Assembly (NCBI GenBank): GCA_020630335.1 | Contig: JAHDBN010000019.1 | Location: 3,115 to 42,896 of the forward strand | Reading direction: 5' to 3' | DNA from: Bacteriovoracaceae bacterium | Lineage (GTDB): Bacteria; Bdellovibrionota; Bacteriovoracia; Bacteriovoracales; Bacteriovoracaceae | DNA: 39,782 nucleotides | Shown: positions 16,063-34,219 of the stretch, piece after piece | How positions within the stretch are numbered: the stretch's first letter is position 1 | How the letters are laid out: each line of letters begins with the position of its first letter | Position numbers and translations under genes: made by a program | Notes under the pieces: generated by a model | What the model saw: the letters and a program-made list of their open reading frames with translations, nothing else | Databases searched by the model: none | Told to the model about the DNA's origin: nothing

Positions 16063-17682
16063 TTAGAATCCACCAAATGGCGAGTATGGAGAAGCTCCAT
16101 AGCCTTGTCCCCATCTATTTCCATATGAATAAGCATCTCTTCCGATTGCTTGCTGTTGTCTTTGGTATTGATAAAAAGTTGCTTGTGGATTACTGAATCT
16201 TCCGTTTCTTCCACCTCTGCCAACTCCACCACCTCTATTAAATCCATTGGCACCGCCGTAACCATTAATTCCGCCATAGCCGTTACCGCCGTAACCGTTG
16301 ATTCCGCCGTAACCGTTGATTCCGCCATAACCGTTGATTCCGCCGTAACCATTAATTCCACCGCCGAAGCCACCGCCATTGAAGCCACCGTAATTTCCAC
16401 CACCAATAGCTCCACCAACTAGCCATCCTTGAACACCTGTTCCTGGATACCCGCCAAAGCCACCACCATATGGTAAATGTCCATTCGCGCCTGCTTGCCA
16501 ACCTGGGAAGCCTGGTCTGTATTGGCCACCAACTTGCCATCCGTAATTATTATTTAAAAAACCTGGAGTTCCACCGAATCCAATATTTCCATGGAAGCCG
16601 CCACCGAATCCACCATAAGGATTATATCCGCCAAGCCCTTGAGCTCCTCCGAAATAACTTGGACCAAGGCCACCAAAACCTCCTCCAAAACCTGCATATT
16701 GTCCAAAGCTTGCTCCATTACATTTTGGAGATTTTGGAGTGACAAAGTCTCTTGCGAGCTCTCCATCTGCTAGTCTTTGAAGATTTTCATTATAAATATT
16801 TCCGTTTAAAGATGTAATGGAATCTGTGTAAGAACCATAAGCTGTAGGACAAGCTCTGGCGTATTCTTTGTGAGTTAAGTATCCAAAAACTGGACCAGCT
16901 AATGCACCAGCTAAACCAACAAGTGTTCTACCAAAACCAAACTTGTTTCTGCCTCCACCTCTTCTAGATCTACAATCAGGACAATCTCTATCGTATTCAT
17001 CACGTAATCTTCTTCTTTCAGCTTCTTGATCAAAACAAGGTACTGAACCAGCTCGAGGATTAATACCAACTGAACATTGAATATCTCCACCGTTAGAAGT
17101 GATGATTCTACCAGGGTTTCCTTCGATAACTTGGTGAGTTCCGCCTACACATTGAGACATTGATCTATTTTTAAGACAGTCTCTAACATCCCAACCAAAT
17201 AAACATTTAGAACATCTTTTACTCATTTTACTGATGTCATTTTTCTTATAATACTTCCTACATCTCCACTTACAGTGTCTATGACTTGTGTAGTAATTTC
17301 CTATCTGAACAGTACCGTGCCCACAGTCTCCTGGAATGATATTTCCATTAGCATCTTTTTTGTTCGGACAATCAATTGGATGCTCATAAACATCAGGGTT
17401 GCCACCTTTATGCTTCTTCCACGCTTCAACTGCTTTTAAATGATCTTGTTCTGAAATACAATAATCACTTAACTTTTGAGTTAATTTGATATCCCAACTC
17501 GCTCCATCTCCTGTACAGTGAGCATTTGTAAAACATGTTGTACCGTTTTGAGTTGAAGAATCGTAAGAAAGTTTTGCTCCTTTAGAATCACATTCATCTA
17601 GCCATGAAGCTAAGTGAGTTCCAGCATGTTGAGAAAAAACTTGAGTTGAAATTGCTAATAATAAAATTACGAACCTATGCAT
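16063..17682 (-). CDS. Secreted Cys-rich / Gly-rich repeat protein
   Basis: The 539-residue product has a signal peptide (MHRFVILLLAISTQVFSQ). The N-terminal half holds about 18 cysteines in varied spacing (CGHGT, HRHCKWRCRKYY, KRCSKCLFGWDVRDC, RDCPDCRSRR), pointing to disulfides or metal binding. A basic Arg/Gly patch and a short hydrophobic Gly/Ala helix (TLVGLAGALAGPVFGYL) follow near the middle. The C-terminal ~210 residues are Gly/Tyr/Asn/Phe-rich, including tandem GGINGY hexapeptides, and the end is Gln/Tyr-rich. No enzyme motif is visible. Gly-Tyr-rich exported proteins are often structural or surface-coat material, but this is a guess. The 3' end lies 3 bases from the convergent Tudor-like gene. 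Confidence 0.75.
   Translation of the reverse strand: MHRFVILLLAISTQVFSQHAGTHLASWLDECDSKGAKLSYDSSTQNGTTCFTNAHCTGDGASWDIKLTQKLSDYCISEQDHLKAVEAWKKHKGGNPDVYEHPIDCPNKKDANGNIIPGDCGHGTVQIGNYYTSHRHCKWRCRKYYKKNDISKMSKRCSKCLFGWDVRDCLKNRSMSQCVGGTHQVIEGNPGRIITSNGGDIQCSVGINPRAGSVPCFDQEAERRRLRDEYDRDCPDCRSRRGGGRNKFGFGRTLVGLAGALAGPVFGYLTHKEYARACPTAYGSYTDSITSLNGNIYNENLQRLADGELARDFVTPKSPKCNGASFGQYAGFGGGFGGLGPSYFGGAQGLGGYNPYGGFGGGFHGNIGFGGTPGFLNNNYGWQVGGQYRPGFPGWQAGANGHLPYGGGFGGYPGTGVQGWLVGGAIGGGNYGGFNGGGFGGGINGYGGINGYGGINGYGGINGYGGNGYGGINGYGGANGFNRGGGVGRGGRNGRFSNPQATFYQYQRQQQAIGRDAYSYGNRWGQGYGASPYSPFGGF
16258..16358 (-). repeat. 18-bp tandem repeat encoding GGINGY
   Basis: Five or six degenerate copies of an 18-base unit (on the + strand ACCGTTGATTCCGCCGTA and close variants) lie within the Gly-rich gene. 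One copy is shortened by three bases, giving GGNGY. The copies differ mainly at synonymous positions, so the peptide repeat looks maintained while the DNA has drifted. Confidence 0.85.
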
Positions 17683-29707: not shown

Positions 29708-29741
29708 TTAGTACTAAATACTAATTTACTAAAGTAATTCG

Positions 29742-29770
29742 AAGGAGAGAATTTATTCTCTCCTTTTTTT
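29742..29770 (+). terminator. Intrinsic terminator after the HU gene
   Basis: AAGGAGAGAA (29742-29751) pairs with TTCTCTCCTT (29756-29765) around a TTTA loop, and the T-run continues to 29770. It lies 34 bases after the stop codon. Confidence 0.92.
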
Positions 29771-29771
29771 A

Positions 29772-29801
29772 TTGAATCCTTTTACTTTTATTCAGTATAA
29801 T
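29772..29801 (+). promoter_or_regulatory. Sigma-70-type promoter for the flagellar regulator block
   Basis: TTGAAT (29772-29777) is followed after 18 bases by a perfect -10 TATAAT (29796-29801). The predicted start near 29808 leaves a 12-base leader with GAAGGA before the ATG at 29820. Confidence 0.65.
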
Positions 29802-29819: not shown

Positions 29820-30329
29820 ATGGATAAAGAGATAGAGCAAAACGAATTAATAAATGTACTCAAGAGTTTTGATGAAGGTGCATTAATAAATTTTGATTCA
29901 AATTTTCAAAAAAAACTTCTTCAAAAACTAACTAAAAAGTTTGCAGTTAAAAATATAAGAATTTCTATGATAGAAACTCTTCCTCTTGATGAAAACGAAA
30001 TTCATAAAGTCATCGGTAAGGCTAAAGAAATACATCATATTGGAGTTCATCATAATAACGAAATAGTATGTTGCCTAGACGAGAGATCAGCTACAAATTT
30101 CTTAAATATTTGCTATGGCGTCAAAGAAGACAGTTTTTTTGATAAAAAGAAAACAAGTTCTTTAGAAGATTTTTTTATTCTAGATTTCATAAAAGAATTC
30201 TCTCAAAGTTTAGACTGTGATGACTTTTCCATTTTTAATGATACAAACTTCTATATTGCGAAGTTAGAGAATAGTTACTTCGAAGTATTTTTTCATTTTA
30301 TTAAATTTAAACAAGAGATGTTAGCTTGA
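29820..30329 (+). CDS. Unknown protein, first gene before flhF
   Basis: The 169-residue soluble protein has no signal peptide. The N-terminus is helical and acidic, then KKFAVKNIRISMIETLPLDE gives a strand-turn region and ERSATNFLNICYGVKED a helix; the C-terminus (FYIAKLENSYFEVFFHFIKFKQ) forms strands. It overlaps flhF as TTGA (its stop TGA lies inside the flhF TTG start), so the two are translationally coupled. That position suggests a role in flagellar placement or number, but no FliM, FlhG or MinD motif is visible, and I do not recognise a family. Confidence 0.72.
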   Translation: MDKEIEQNELINVLKSFDEGALINFDSNFQKKLLQKLTKKFAVKNIRISMIETLPLDENEIHKVIGKAKEIHHIGVHHNNEIVCCLDERSATNFLNICYGVKEDSFFDKKKTSSLEDFFILDFIKEFSQSLDCDDFSIFNDTNFYIAKLENSYFEVFFHFIKFKQEMLA

Positions 30330-31366
30330 AGACTTATACTTTTGAAGGAAACTCTCTTGAAGAAGCTCTAAGTGCAGTAAAAAATCATTTAGGGCCAGAA
30401 GCCGTTATTTTAAAAACAAATAACTATTCAGGAATACAAGGAGCCTTGAAAAAAAATAAGTTTGAAGTTATTGCAAGAAAAGCTGAAAGTTTAATTGAAG
30501 ATAAGAATGAACATTTTAATTTTGAAGAATATGAGACTCGTTTTAAGGATTTGGAAAAATTAGTAAATGAATTAAGCTTAGAGATAAAAGAATCCAAAGA
30601 AAAAAAATCTTCTATCTATAAAATAAGAAAAATATTAAAATCTTTTGATCTTTCAGAAGATTTAATTTCACATGTCCTAAAAAAAGCAAGCTTTGAATTG
30701 AATTCAGATGAACTTAAGAATGAAGAAGTCATTTATGAACTTGTTTTAAGAGAAATATCTAGAAGTATATTAGTGTCTCATTCTTGTTTTACTAAATTAG
30801 AAAATAAGTTTAAATCAGTTATAACCATACTCTGCTCTCCTCGTTCTTCTGGACAAAGTTCGATGACAAAAAAGTTAGCAAGCTTAAGTGAAAGTGCTGA
30901 AATCATTTGCTTTCGAAGTTGTGATGAACAAAATTTTAGTAATTCAATGTTAGAGCTGGATGTACATAATGTGCATACCCTTCATGATTTAATAGCGAAA
31001 TTAAATCGTTTAACTCATAAGAATCGACATGTTTTTATAGACCTGAATACTAACAATTATCCAGAAGATCATACAAAAAAAATTATTCATTCTATAAAAA
31101 AGAATTTTAAGAGAGTAGAGGTCTTACTATCTTTGTCAGCTATTCACTCAGAATTGTATAATAAAAGAATTAGTCAGATTTATAAGGATATAGCGGATGG
31201 AGCAGTAGTATCTCATTTGGATCTATCTTTAAATCTTTCAGCCCTAGTGAATGTACAATTTTTTAATAAACTACCCTATAAGTTTTTTGGTACAGGGCCA
31301 GTTATCCCAAAAGATTTAGAAGAAGCTTCTAGGGAGAAAATTATATCCCATATATTAAGCTTATAA
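30326..31366 (+). CDS. flhF: FlhF-like protein with degenerate GTPase motifs
   Basis: FlhF is an SRP-type GTPase that places polar flagella. The N-terminus MKTYTFEGNSLEEALSAVKN followed by LGPEAVILKT is the clear FlhF N-terminal domain, and KFFGTGPVIPKDLEEAS near the C-terminus matches its G5 region. A coiled coil sits at about residues 60-95. The GTPase core is worn: where FlhF has GPTGVGKTT, this has SPRSSGQSS (171-179, Gln177 replacing the catalytic Lys); DTAGR is replaced by DLNTN, and TKLDE by SHLDL. It should therefore be unable to bind or hydrolyse GTP normally. The start is TTG 30326, coupled to the upstream gene. The reading frame is intact, so this is divergence and not a pseudogene. 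fliA follows without an flhG between. Confidence 0.78.
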   Translation: MKTYTFEGNSLEEALSAVKNHLGPEAVILKTNNYSGIQGALKKNKFEVIARKAESLIEDKNEHFNFEEYETRFKDLEKLVNELSLEIKESKEKKSSIYKIRKILKSFDLSEDLISHVLKKASFELNSDELKNEEVIYELVLREISRSILVSHSCFTKLENKFKSVITILCSPRSSGQSSMTKKLASLSESAEIICFRSCDEQNFSNSMLELDVHNVHTLHDLIAKLNRLTHKNRHVFIDLNTNNYPEDHTKKIIHSIKKNFKRVEVLLSLSAIHSELYNKRISQIYKDIADGAVVSHLDLSLNLSALVNVQFFNKLPYKFFGTGPVIPKDLEEASREKIISHILSL

Positions 31367-31444: not shown

Positions 31445-32221
31445 ATGACTACAAAACTTAGAAATCTAAAAGATTATAGAGATACCAAGAATCCTAGGGT
31501 GAAGCAAAAAATAATTGTGGAGTATGCTCCTTTAGTAAAGTTTATTGCTCAGAGAATAGCATCAAGGTTACCTTCTAATATAGAACTTGATGATCTTATT
31601 TCATGTGGTGTTATTGGTCTAATGGATGCAATAGAAAAATTCGATGCAACAAGACAAAATAAATTTAAAACGTATGCAGAGTTTAGAATTCGAGGATCGA
31701 TATTAGATGAATTAAGGGCTCAGGATTGGATCCCAAGATCAGTGCGAGATAAAGCAAAAGTTCTTGATAGAGCTGCTGCCAAAATAGAAAACCAATATGG
31801 ACGATCAGCAACAGAAGAAGAGATGTGCAAAGAGCTAAATTTAAGCATTGAAGAGTATCATCAAATGTTAAATCAAACACAGTCTGTATCAGTTTTAAAT
31901 ATTGATGATTCTAATCTTTTTAAAAAATGTGATAAGAAATCGATGCGAAACTTAACTGAAAATAGAAATGGAACGAATCCTTTTATTTCTATTAATGAGA
32001 AGGATTTGAGTGATAAGCTTAAAAATGGCATAAAACTCTTACCTGAGAAACAACGACTTGTTCTTTCTTTGTACTATTATGAAGACCTTAACCTTAAAGA
32101 GATCGGAAAAGTTCTTGGTGTTACAGAGTCACGAGTGTCGCAACTTCATACTCAAGCTATGATAAGATTAAGATCAAAACTAAAAAATAAGATTTCAGAA
32201 GAAGATCTTAGGGTCGCCTAA
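31445..32221 (+). CDS. fliA: Flagellar sigma factor FliA (sigma-28)
   Basis: A 258-residue sigma-70-family factor that directs RNA polymerase to late flagellar and chemotaxis genes. Region 2 is intact (YAPLVKFIAQRIASRLP; LDDLISCGVIGLMDAIEKFD; FKTYAEFRIRGSILDELRAQDW, in which IRGSILDELR-xxDW-PRSVR is diagnostic of FliA/WhiG). Region 3 follows (YGRSATEEEMCKELNLS), and region 4 carries LPEKQRLVLSLYYYEDLNL followed by EIGKVLGVTESRVSQLH. There is no visible ribosome site. The gene is 78 bases behind flhF, where many bacteria have flhG between the two. A short hairpin CTTAGG-GTCG-CCTAAG overlaps its stop codon. Confidence 0.92.
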   Translation: MTTKLRNLKDYRDTKNPRVKQKIIVEYAPLVKFIAQRIASRLPSNIELDDLISCGVIGLMDAIEKFDATRQNKFKTYAEFRIRGSILDELRAQDWIPRSVRDKAKVLDRAAAKIENQYGRSATEEEMCKELNLSIEEYHQMLNQTQSVSVLNIDDSNLFKKCDKKSMRNLTENRNGTNPFISINEKDLSDKLKNGIKLLPEKQRLVLSLYYYEDLNLKEIGKVLGVTESRVSQLHTQAMIRLRSKLKNKISEEDLRVA

Positions 32222-32314
32222 GGCCGAGCAAAAAACTCCCTTAAGTTCTTTCCAAATCGCTAACCCTGCGTCATTATTAAGATATAAGCATTTTATCAAT
32301 TAATGAGGTTTAGA

Positions 32315-34219
32315 ATGTTCGGTGATAAGTTTAAAGATTCTTTTAAAATATATTGGTTTCTTCATGTCATATTTGTTGCGATAGTTGTCTTCGCTTTTTT
32401 TCTTTTAATTCACTTTAAAAATCAATCATTAGAAAGAGCTGTGAAGATGTCTAATCTTCATAAAGATGTAAAAACGGTTGTAGAAACATCTCAACTTTTA
32501 AAAAGAAAAAATGTTTCGAATGAAGAATTAAATAATAACTTAGATCACCTTATTTCGATTAATAAAGAAGTCTTAGGTATGCAATCTTTGCTTGGAGAAG
32601 ATGAACTTCATGAAAAAAGAGCAGAATTATTTGAAAGTTTTTCAGATAATCAAAGACCAGAATTTGATCTTTCTAAAAGTTGGTTTGATTATGTTGAAGC
32701 AAATAAGAGTTTTTTGAAATTTGTACAAGCAAATTATTGGAAGACATTGACTGGAATTAGTAAACGAATAGTAGCTAGAACAGATTCTCGTTTTGATTGG
32801 AATAGATTTCCTTTTGATGTTATTAAAAATAATAGTAAGGATTATCAACAGGTTTTAGATGTTACAAAAGCTTCAGCTTTAAAAGAAGAAAGTAAAGTTG
32901 AGATTGAAAATAACATTAAAGAATTATCCAAGAGATTAGAAATTGTAAAAAATGAATTAATTAAATCAAGACCTTATAGAGAGAATTATAATGAGTTCAT
33001 GAGGCTTACAGAGAAATGGGTTCAAAGGTGGAATAAGTCATCGCAGAGAGTTCTCACTCCTAGGTTTGATTTTATGTCGGTTAAAGATTTTTTGACTTTA
33101 GCATTTGTCATCTTGCTTTCCTTAATACTGTTTTACGTACTTGGGAAAAAAGTATTTCTTTACAACAAAGGACTGGCTGAACAAGAAAGTATTGATCAGT
33201 TTAACAGACTTATTTTAAAAGATGATATTAAGTTTATCGAAGGTGGAAGCTTTGAGTATCAAAATACCATTAAGAGTCTAAGAGAATATCTTAAAAAGAA
33301 ATTAAGCTTTTCTCGAATTTTTCAAAAGTCGGTACCTTTTCCTGCTTTGTTATTAGATGAGAAAATGAATCTTAAGTGGAAAAATGAACACTTTGATGAA
33401 TTCTTAAATATAGATGATAATAATATTTTAAAAAAATTGGATGACTCTTTTGCGCAGAATATTTCTTCTATGATTCAAAATACTTTTGAGAGTAATCTTC
33501 CAAGTATTTACAAAGTTAAAAATAAAAAAGATCAATCATTTCAAATTTATATTACGCCAGTTGAAAGTTATAGTGTTAGATTTGTGATGATTTCTTTTAC
33601 CTCTCTTGGTGAGGTGGAGGGATCTATTAGTATTCATGCAAGTTCTCTGCTGGAATCTCTTGATCATATTTTAGAAAACCTAGAAGATGAAAGTTTTAAC
33701 CCTGAGGATCTATCTAATGAGTTTTCTAAAAAAGAAGTGAATCTTCTTTATGAAAAGCTTTTAGACTTTGTTTCATATCGAAATAATAAGAGTCTTCATC
33801 TACAAAAAAATGTTTCAAGTTTGAATTCAGATGTGGAAGTAATGAAAGAAGCTTTAGAAAAAATTAATAATTTGAATTCAGAATCTCTTGATATTTATAG
33901 TGGTCTTTCTTCTAAGTTTTTAGAGTTAAAAAATACTCTTACTGATTCAGTTGAAATGAATGAAACTCTTTACTTACATCAATTGCAGGGTAGTCAGCTA
34001 ATTGAAGAGTTAGGAGAACTAATTTCATCACCTAGCCACTTAGAGAATGTAAATCTTTATCTCGAAAAATCATTAGAAGTTCAGAAGAAATTTGCAGAAT
34101 ATGAAGAGGAAGTTATTATTCTTCTTAAAAGTATTGTAGATTCTACTAAACAAATAGGTGGACATTTATCAGTTGTTTCAGAAAATATTCAAGAAGGATT
34201 AAATAAATCTTTAAATTAA
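32315..34219 (+). CDS. Two-transmembrane signalling-like protein, output domain not recognised
   Basis: From ATG 32315 (GAGG 6 bases upstream; ATG 32303 overlaps that site) the protein has 634 residues. Transmembrane helix 1 is at ~13-33 (WFLHVIFVAIVVFAFFLLI), a periplasmic helical domain of about 220 residues follows, and helix 2 is at ~255-275 (LTLAFVILLSLILFYVLG). The cytoplasmic part has a PAS-like segment (VPFPALLLDEKMNLKWKNEH) and then long heptad-rich coiled coils to the C-terminus. No histidine-kinase, GGDEF or methyl-accepting hairpin motif is visible. The layout resembles a chemoreceptor or sensor kinase that lost or replaced its output. It is downstream of fliA; its stop overlaps the convergent astA stop by 4 bases. 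Confidence 0.7.
   Translation: MFGDKFKDSFKIYWFLHVIFVAIVVFAFFLLIHFKNQSLERAVKMSNLHKDVKTVVETSQLLKRKNVSNEELNNNLDHLISINKEVLGMQSLLGEDELHEKRAELFESFSDNQRPEFDLSKSWFDYVEANKSFLKFVQANYWKTLTGISKRIVARTDSRFDWNRFPFDVIKNNSKDYQQVLDVTKASALKEESKVEIENNIKELSKRLEIVKNELIKSRPYRENYNEFMRLTEKWVQRWNKSSQRVLTPRFDFMSVKDFLTLAFVILLSLILFYVLGKKVFLYNKGLAEQESIDQFNRLILKDDIKFIEGGSFEYQNTIKSLREYLKKKLSFSRIFQKSVPFPALLLDEKMNLKWKNEHFDEFLNIDDNNILKKLDDSFAQNISSMIQNTFESNLPSIYKVKNKKDQSFQIYITPVESYSVRFVMISFTSLGEVEGSISIHASSLLESLDHILENLEDESFNPEDLSNEFSKKEVNLLYEKLLDFVSYRNNKSLHLQKNVSSLNSDVEVMKEALEKINNLNSESLDIYSGLSSKFLELKNTLTDSVEMNETLYLHQLQGSQLIEELGELISSPSHLENVNLYLEKSLEVQKKFAEYEEEVIILLKSIVDSTKQIGGHLSVVSENIQEGLNKSLN

Follow-up and report, generated by a model that had tools for sequence, protein, structure and literature searches.

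A Gln-type FlhF, a probable pseudo-GTPase, shared by the Bacteriovoracaceae and kept in a genus without a flagellum

The FlhF proteins of the Bacteriovoracaceae, a family of mostly predatory bacteria, form a clade-wide class of probable pseudo-GTPases, and one genus of the family retains such a protein in the absence of a flagellum. The best overall explanation, to which we assign a probability of roughly 0.6, is that FlhF in this family is a scaffold free of its GTP switch, that FlhG changed along with it, and that in the aflagellate genus the protein serves a non-flagellar task. Flagellar placement is held to have a conserved core, the GTP switch of FlhF, which FlhG shuts off (PMC12826062). 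A polarly flagellated family whose FlhF has lost its GTPase in evolution and whose FlhG has been rewired would be a natural experiment: with culturable predators such as Halobacteriovorax, the role of GTP in FlhF could be tested directly. In the aflagellate genus, for its part, the scaffold role of FlhF is split from the flagellum, which offers a route to a flagellum-independent partner.

The window, that is, the whole stretch of 39,782 nucleotides that was analysed, carries flhF on the forward strand at 30326-31366, as identified by its open reading frame and motifs, SRP54/FlhF family matches, an NG fold and purifying selection in genus mates. The frame encodes 346 amino acids with zero internal stops and begins with TTG, in a 4-bp overlap (TTGA) with the stop of the open reading frame at 29820-30329, which bears out the intact frame and coupled start described by the first-pass annotation. 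NCBIfam FlhF is the top match of the protein, yet it reaches 41.5 bits against a cut-off of 174, and Pfam SRP54 scores 30.8 bits (cut-off 22.7) while covering the back half of the domain only. For the structure, 56 family sequences went into an AlphaFold model (mean pLDDT 83), and comparison with the PDB puts it nearest to solved FlhF/FtsY NG domains: S. putrefaciens FlhF-GDP at a Z score of 24.4 and B. subtilis FlhF-GTP at 23.2. The NG fold is thus retained. Together with an N-terminal B domain or FliG-interaction domain (FID; residues 1-54, 30326-30487, forward strand), this SRP-GTPase fold marks the protein as an FlhF by descent. It shares with the S. putrefaciens and B. subtilis proteins (8r9r, 2px0, 2px3) the order B/FID-linker-NG, an NG fold at Z 23-24 and the N-terminal domain KFE..(S/T)LEEAL..VK..LGPDAIILKT, and in flagellated relatives it occupies the same operon place before flhG/fliA. 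Within its own genome (2.36 Mb, 98% complete), PF00448 matches only Ffh, FtsY and this FlhF. Ffh and FtsY, which share the SRP GTPase fold with FlhF, are separate and canonical, and a second canonical flhF doing the usual job is rejected by the same search.

Motif equivalences, all on the forward strand, were taken from a profile alignment with two solved FlhF structures, 2px0 (B. subtilis) and 8r9r (S. putrefaciens). The P-loop (G1) equivalent is SPRSSGQSSM (residues 171-180, 30836-30865), in which Ser171 replaces the first Gly and Gln177 replaces the Lys; the G3 equivalent, DLNT (residues 239-242, 31040-31051), retains its Asp with TAG gone; and the G4 equivalent, SHLD (residues 296-299, 31211-31222), has His for Lys and again retains the Asp. 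The DTYR motif of the G2/insertion box is also absent. Unlike the S. putrefaciens and B. subtilis enzymes, this FlhF has no GxxxxGK[ST], DTYR box, DTAG or TKLD Lys. What it keeps is Asp239 in G3, Asp299 in G4 and, as a G5-like loop with FGTG, FFGTGPVIPKDLE (residues 320-332, 31283-31321), which is highly conserved within the family. The alignment upholds Gln177, DLNT and SHLD as first described, but the claim that all GTPase motifs are degraded goes too far. Since the DTYR box is lost while Asp239, Asp299 and FGTG are kept, it is the phosphate/Mg side of the predicted pocket that is destroyed, not every motif position.

This state extends well beyond a single genome. FlhF was found in 111 of the 116 genomes searched in the order, which all belong to one GTDB family, Bacteriovoracaceae. 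Among 44 Bacteriovoracaceae FlhF sequences from whole genomes, the P-loop Lys is Gln in every case and the first P-loop Gly is Ser in 43; none has GxxxxGK[ST], whereas all 46 FlhFs from other Bdellovibrionota families (Bdellovibrio-like and deeper ones, used as the outgroup) keep it, with the same operon and domain layout. Likewise, a canonical P-loop is found in none of 80 FlhF records from named genomes, many of which come from the same genomes and which include the isolates Halobacteriovorax marinus, Bacteriovorax BSW11_IV and DB6_IX, so that the loss is a whole-family state. In a maximum-likelihood tree, a single long-stemmed branch, supported at 100/100, sets the Gln-type proteins apart from the rest, and at the P-loop site they carry a new conserved loop, SExxSGQSSM. 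A single clade with a new conserved loop argues, as far as sequences can tell, that the GTP-binding motifs were lost once, in the Bacteriovoracaceae ancestor, and then fixed, which is unlike random decay. A lineage-specific accident of this one genome is rejected by the census and the tree, and the pseudo-GTPase scaffold without a GTP switch proposed by the first-pass annotation gains support as a trait of the entire family. A limited literature search, which is no proof of novelty, returned no mention of an FlhF pseudoGTPase or of FlhF with Bacteriovorax. As a separate observation, the flagellated sister of the window's genus (G070; L036) has an FlhF that retains the first P-loop Gly (GEGATGQTSM).

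The FlhF of S. putrefaciens works as a tether, with its NG domain attached to HubP, the pole landmark, and its FID to FliG (PMC11236974). In Vibrio FlhF it is GTP binding that matters, not hydrolysis; in V. alginolyticus, loss of T306 or D439 abolishes flagella and G299A, K305A and K437A have partial effects (PMC6092412). The family FlhF appears, on comparison with these proteins, to be a tether made GTP-independent, one that would no longer bind GTP. Its Asp299 and conserved Ser/Thr178 correspond to the most loss-sensitive V. alginolyticus residues, and because these two, Asp239 and the G5-like loop are conserved, some non-hydrolysing ligand binding may persist. A stronger form of this idea is that the pocket was re-specialised to bind a guanine ligand, be it GDP, ppGpp or some other nucleotide, with no Lys/Mg coordination, which would make FlhF a sensor instead of a dead scaffold. 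Gly176-Gln177 is indeed invariant across 56 aligned named-record FlhFs, Asp239 and Asp299 are invariant as well, the FGTG-VPDDIE loop ranks among the best-conserved parts of the G domain, and (p)ppGpp binding is known for SRP GTPases (PDB 7o9h, 7o9f and 8rix are among the structure matches). We nevertheless regard such a sensor as unlikely, as the insertion-box motif is deleted and its stretch varies freely in the family (entropy 3.1), the G3 TAG and the first Gly are lost, and the conservation could equally serve a dimer or partner interface.

The partner of FlhF has changed as well. The DQAxxLR helix of FlhG is the activator of FlhF GTP hydrolysis (PMC12826062), and unlike the FlhG of the S. 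putrefaciens and B. subtilis systems, that of the family does not have it: the helix is found in 0 of 75 Bacteriovoracaceae FlhGs, compared with 8 of 32 from the outgroup. A Trp-Leu (WL) pair upstream of Walker A, on the other hand, is present in 75/75 and absent from all 32 outgroup proteins. This motif sits in a short N-terminal segment with the consensus KTSEWLxSF or AxxWLLSQN, after which GKGGVGKT is intact; an exception in the whole-genome set is the FlhG of L040, which as read has no WL pair before Walker A, possibly a start-codon matter. The link between the WL motif and the Gln-type FlhF is one of co-occurrence. The known activator helix is not universal in Bdellovibrionota FlhG, as several outgroup families (e.g. 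L073, L086, L102) have FlhGs without DQAxxLR beside a canonical FlhF P-loop. Loss of the helix would thus be more widespread than that of the GTPase, which it may have preceded.

In the window's genus, represented by four draft genomes (98, 99, 94 and 88% complete), the flagellar context itself has disappeared. The gene order in relatives is fliM fliN fliP fliQ fliR flhB flhA flhF flhG fliA; the window and the other genomes of its genus instead have a 169-aa gene, flhF, fliA and a gene for 638-640 aa, so that of the flhA-flhF-flhG-fliA arrangement seen in flagellated relatives only flhF-fliA is left. Profile searches found FlhA, FliG, the FliM/FliN C-domain, CheW and flagellin in none of the four genomes, and no FlhG orthologue in them either; FlhA and FliG are present in nearly all other Bacteriovoracaceae. 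An FlhG encoded elsewhere in the genome is rejected, the candidates being background ParA/MinD-like matches of at most 47 bits that resemble paralogues in the flagellated sister. Unlike the S. putrefaciens and B. subtilis systems, the genus therefore has no FliG or FlhG for FlhF to bind, and the co-occurrence with FliF/FliG and FlhG that goes with a placement factor, seen in the rest of the family, is missing here. Flagellar placement, the function first proposed for this protein, can be inferred for the flagellated relatives and fails for this genome. It is highly improbable that flagellar genes were simply missed and that FlhF places flagella here as usual. The genomes are draft assemblies, which leaves some room for this account, but four independent genomes are without five flagellar/chemotaxis families common to nearly all relatives, and the flhA and flhG sites next to flhF are contiguous and empty in all four.

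Type IV pilus and Tad-type ATPase relatives (PF00437) are retained in the genus. FipA is a known polar partner of FlhF, and FipA (DUF2802) was not found in the family genomes searched. Several observations on flagellar genes elsewhere in the family stand apart from these results. G070 has flagellin, FliG and FlhA with no CheW match, and apparently swims without the usual chemotaxis coupling. In another genus, a 1.6-Mb genome (G050) has no FlhF, FlhA, FliMN_C or flagellin and has probably lost the flagellum independently. Most family genomes (e.g. G001, G027, G051) encode a second short FliG_C protein of about 145-160 aa beside FliG, which is absent in the aflagellate genus.

Translationally coupled to flhF, the 169-aa protein (29820-30329, forward strand) occurs in all four genus genomes and has only marginal profile matches elsewhere, and is thus genus-specific by sequence. 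A FliM-middle/CheC-like fold is predicted for it from a low-confidence model (pLDDT 57, three sequences), whose 25 top-ranking PDB matches (Z 5.7-9.0) all belong to FliM middle domain, FliY, CheC or CheX, the next falling to 2.5. The protein differs from FliM, CheC and CheX in having no FliN-like C-domain, no significant sequence match (a profile comparison with FliM by hhalign stayed below significance) and no flagellum in its genome. That it is a truncated FliM descendant, moved beside flhF by deletion of the intervening genes, is a reasonable but unproven reading of the model. On the 5' side of its gene, a consensus scan places a putative sigma-70-like promoter, TTGAAT-18-TATAAT (29772-29801, forward strand), preceded by a terminator at 29741-29766; a sigma-28 consensus scan of the window was too permissive at 3 mismatches given the AT-rich DNA. 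Downstream of flhF lies fliA (31445-32221, forward strand; FliA_WhiG, 275 bits), encoding a flagellar-type sigma-28 factor and retained in all four genomes without a flagellum, followed by the gene for a 638-aa membrane protein (32303-34219, forward strand) that BLASTP shows to be conserved 3' of fliA in the family (E 3e-39 and 4e-27 for the G011 orthologue against flagellated relatives). In Bdellovibrio, FliA is an essential attack-phase regulator whose targets include Tad pili (PMC5430801). By analogy, such a role would explain how fliA outlived the flagellum.

Selection still acts on flhF itself. Comparing G011 with G034, the closest pair of aflagellate genomes, gives dN 0.103, dS 1.95 and dN/dS 0.053 for the gene, within the range of adjacent housekeeping genes. 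The B/FID (N-terminal 52 residues) has dN 0 at dS 1.2, the NG domain has dN 0.053 at dS 1.8, and the linker is nearly free to change. The gene is therefore under strong purifying selection in these two genomes despite the missing flagellum. Its frame is intact in three of the four genus genomes; in the fourth, G065 (L187:618-2001), flhF is cleanly absent while both neighbours, the 169-aa gene and fliA, are kept about 115 bp apart, and this loss counts against an essential role in the genus.

A decaying pseudogene is rejected by the dN/dS and the intact frames, though G065 lost the gene. A wider version, in which flhF is a relic carried along in an operon with a fliA retained for the attack-phase programme, could draw on the disappearance of flagellum and FlhG, on the clean gap in G065 and on the essential place of FliA in Bdellovibrio. 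We consider it improbable, given a dN/dS near 0.05, an N-terminal domain without a single amino acid change between two aflagellate genomes and a G domain altered no more than in the flagellated sister. That last point comes from a count of family-conserved columns altered in the genus relative to the flagellated family, with control trios as comparison. In the FID 16/35 (46%) are altered, compared with at most 19% in control trios, and in the linker 15/17 (88%), compared with at most 39%; the pseudo-G domain, at 8/39 (21%), is about equal to the flagellated sister alone. With the FID and linker altered beyond the controls and the pseudo-G domain about as much as in the sister, the pattern fits loss of the flagellar clients and a remodelled client end, with an unchanged role for the pseudo-G domain.

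A history of the following kind would accommodate these results. Loss of the GTP switch in the Bacteriovoracaceae ancestor would have turned FlhF into a nucleotide-independent, or at least non-hydrolysing, scaffold that holds a client with its N-terminal domain and, with its pseudo-G domain, either itself or a fixed partner at the pole. Among flagellated members, an FlhG with the Trp-Leu motif in place and the DQAxxLR helix gone would probably control FlhF through ATP-dependent binding alone. The window's genus would later have lost the flagellum and FlhG; its FlhF would then have dropped the conserved linker motif and remodelled the client domain while retaining the pseudo-G domain, and might act, along with FliA and the coupled protein of FliM/CheC fold, in a task outside the flagellum, perhaps the polar placement of a pilus or an attachment machine. 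The presence of Tad pili among FliA targets in Bdellovibrio suggests, by analogy, a pole-attached pilus or attachment system as the client. More specifically, a non-flagellar machine may have taken over a nucleotide-free FlhF as its polar scaffold, with the FliM/CheC-fold protein and sigma-28 as partners and the FID retooled for a new client, a proposal that we advance tentatively and at somewhat less than even odds. Elsewhere in the window, on the reverse strand at 16063-17682, lies a gene whose Gly-rich product carries tandem repeats of the GGINGY type in the C-terminal half.
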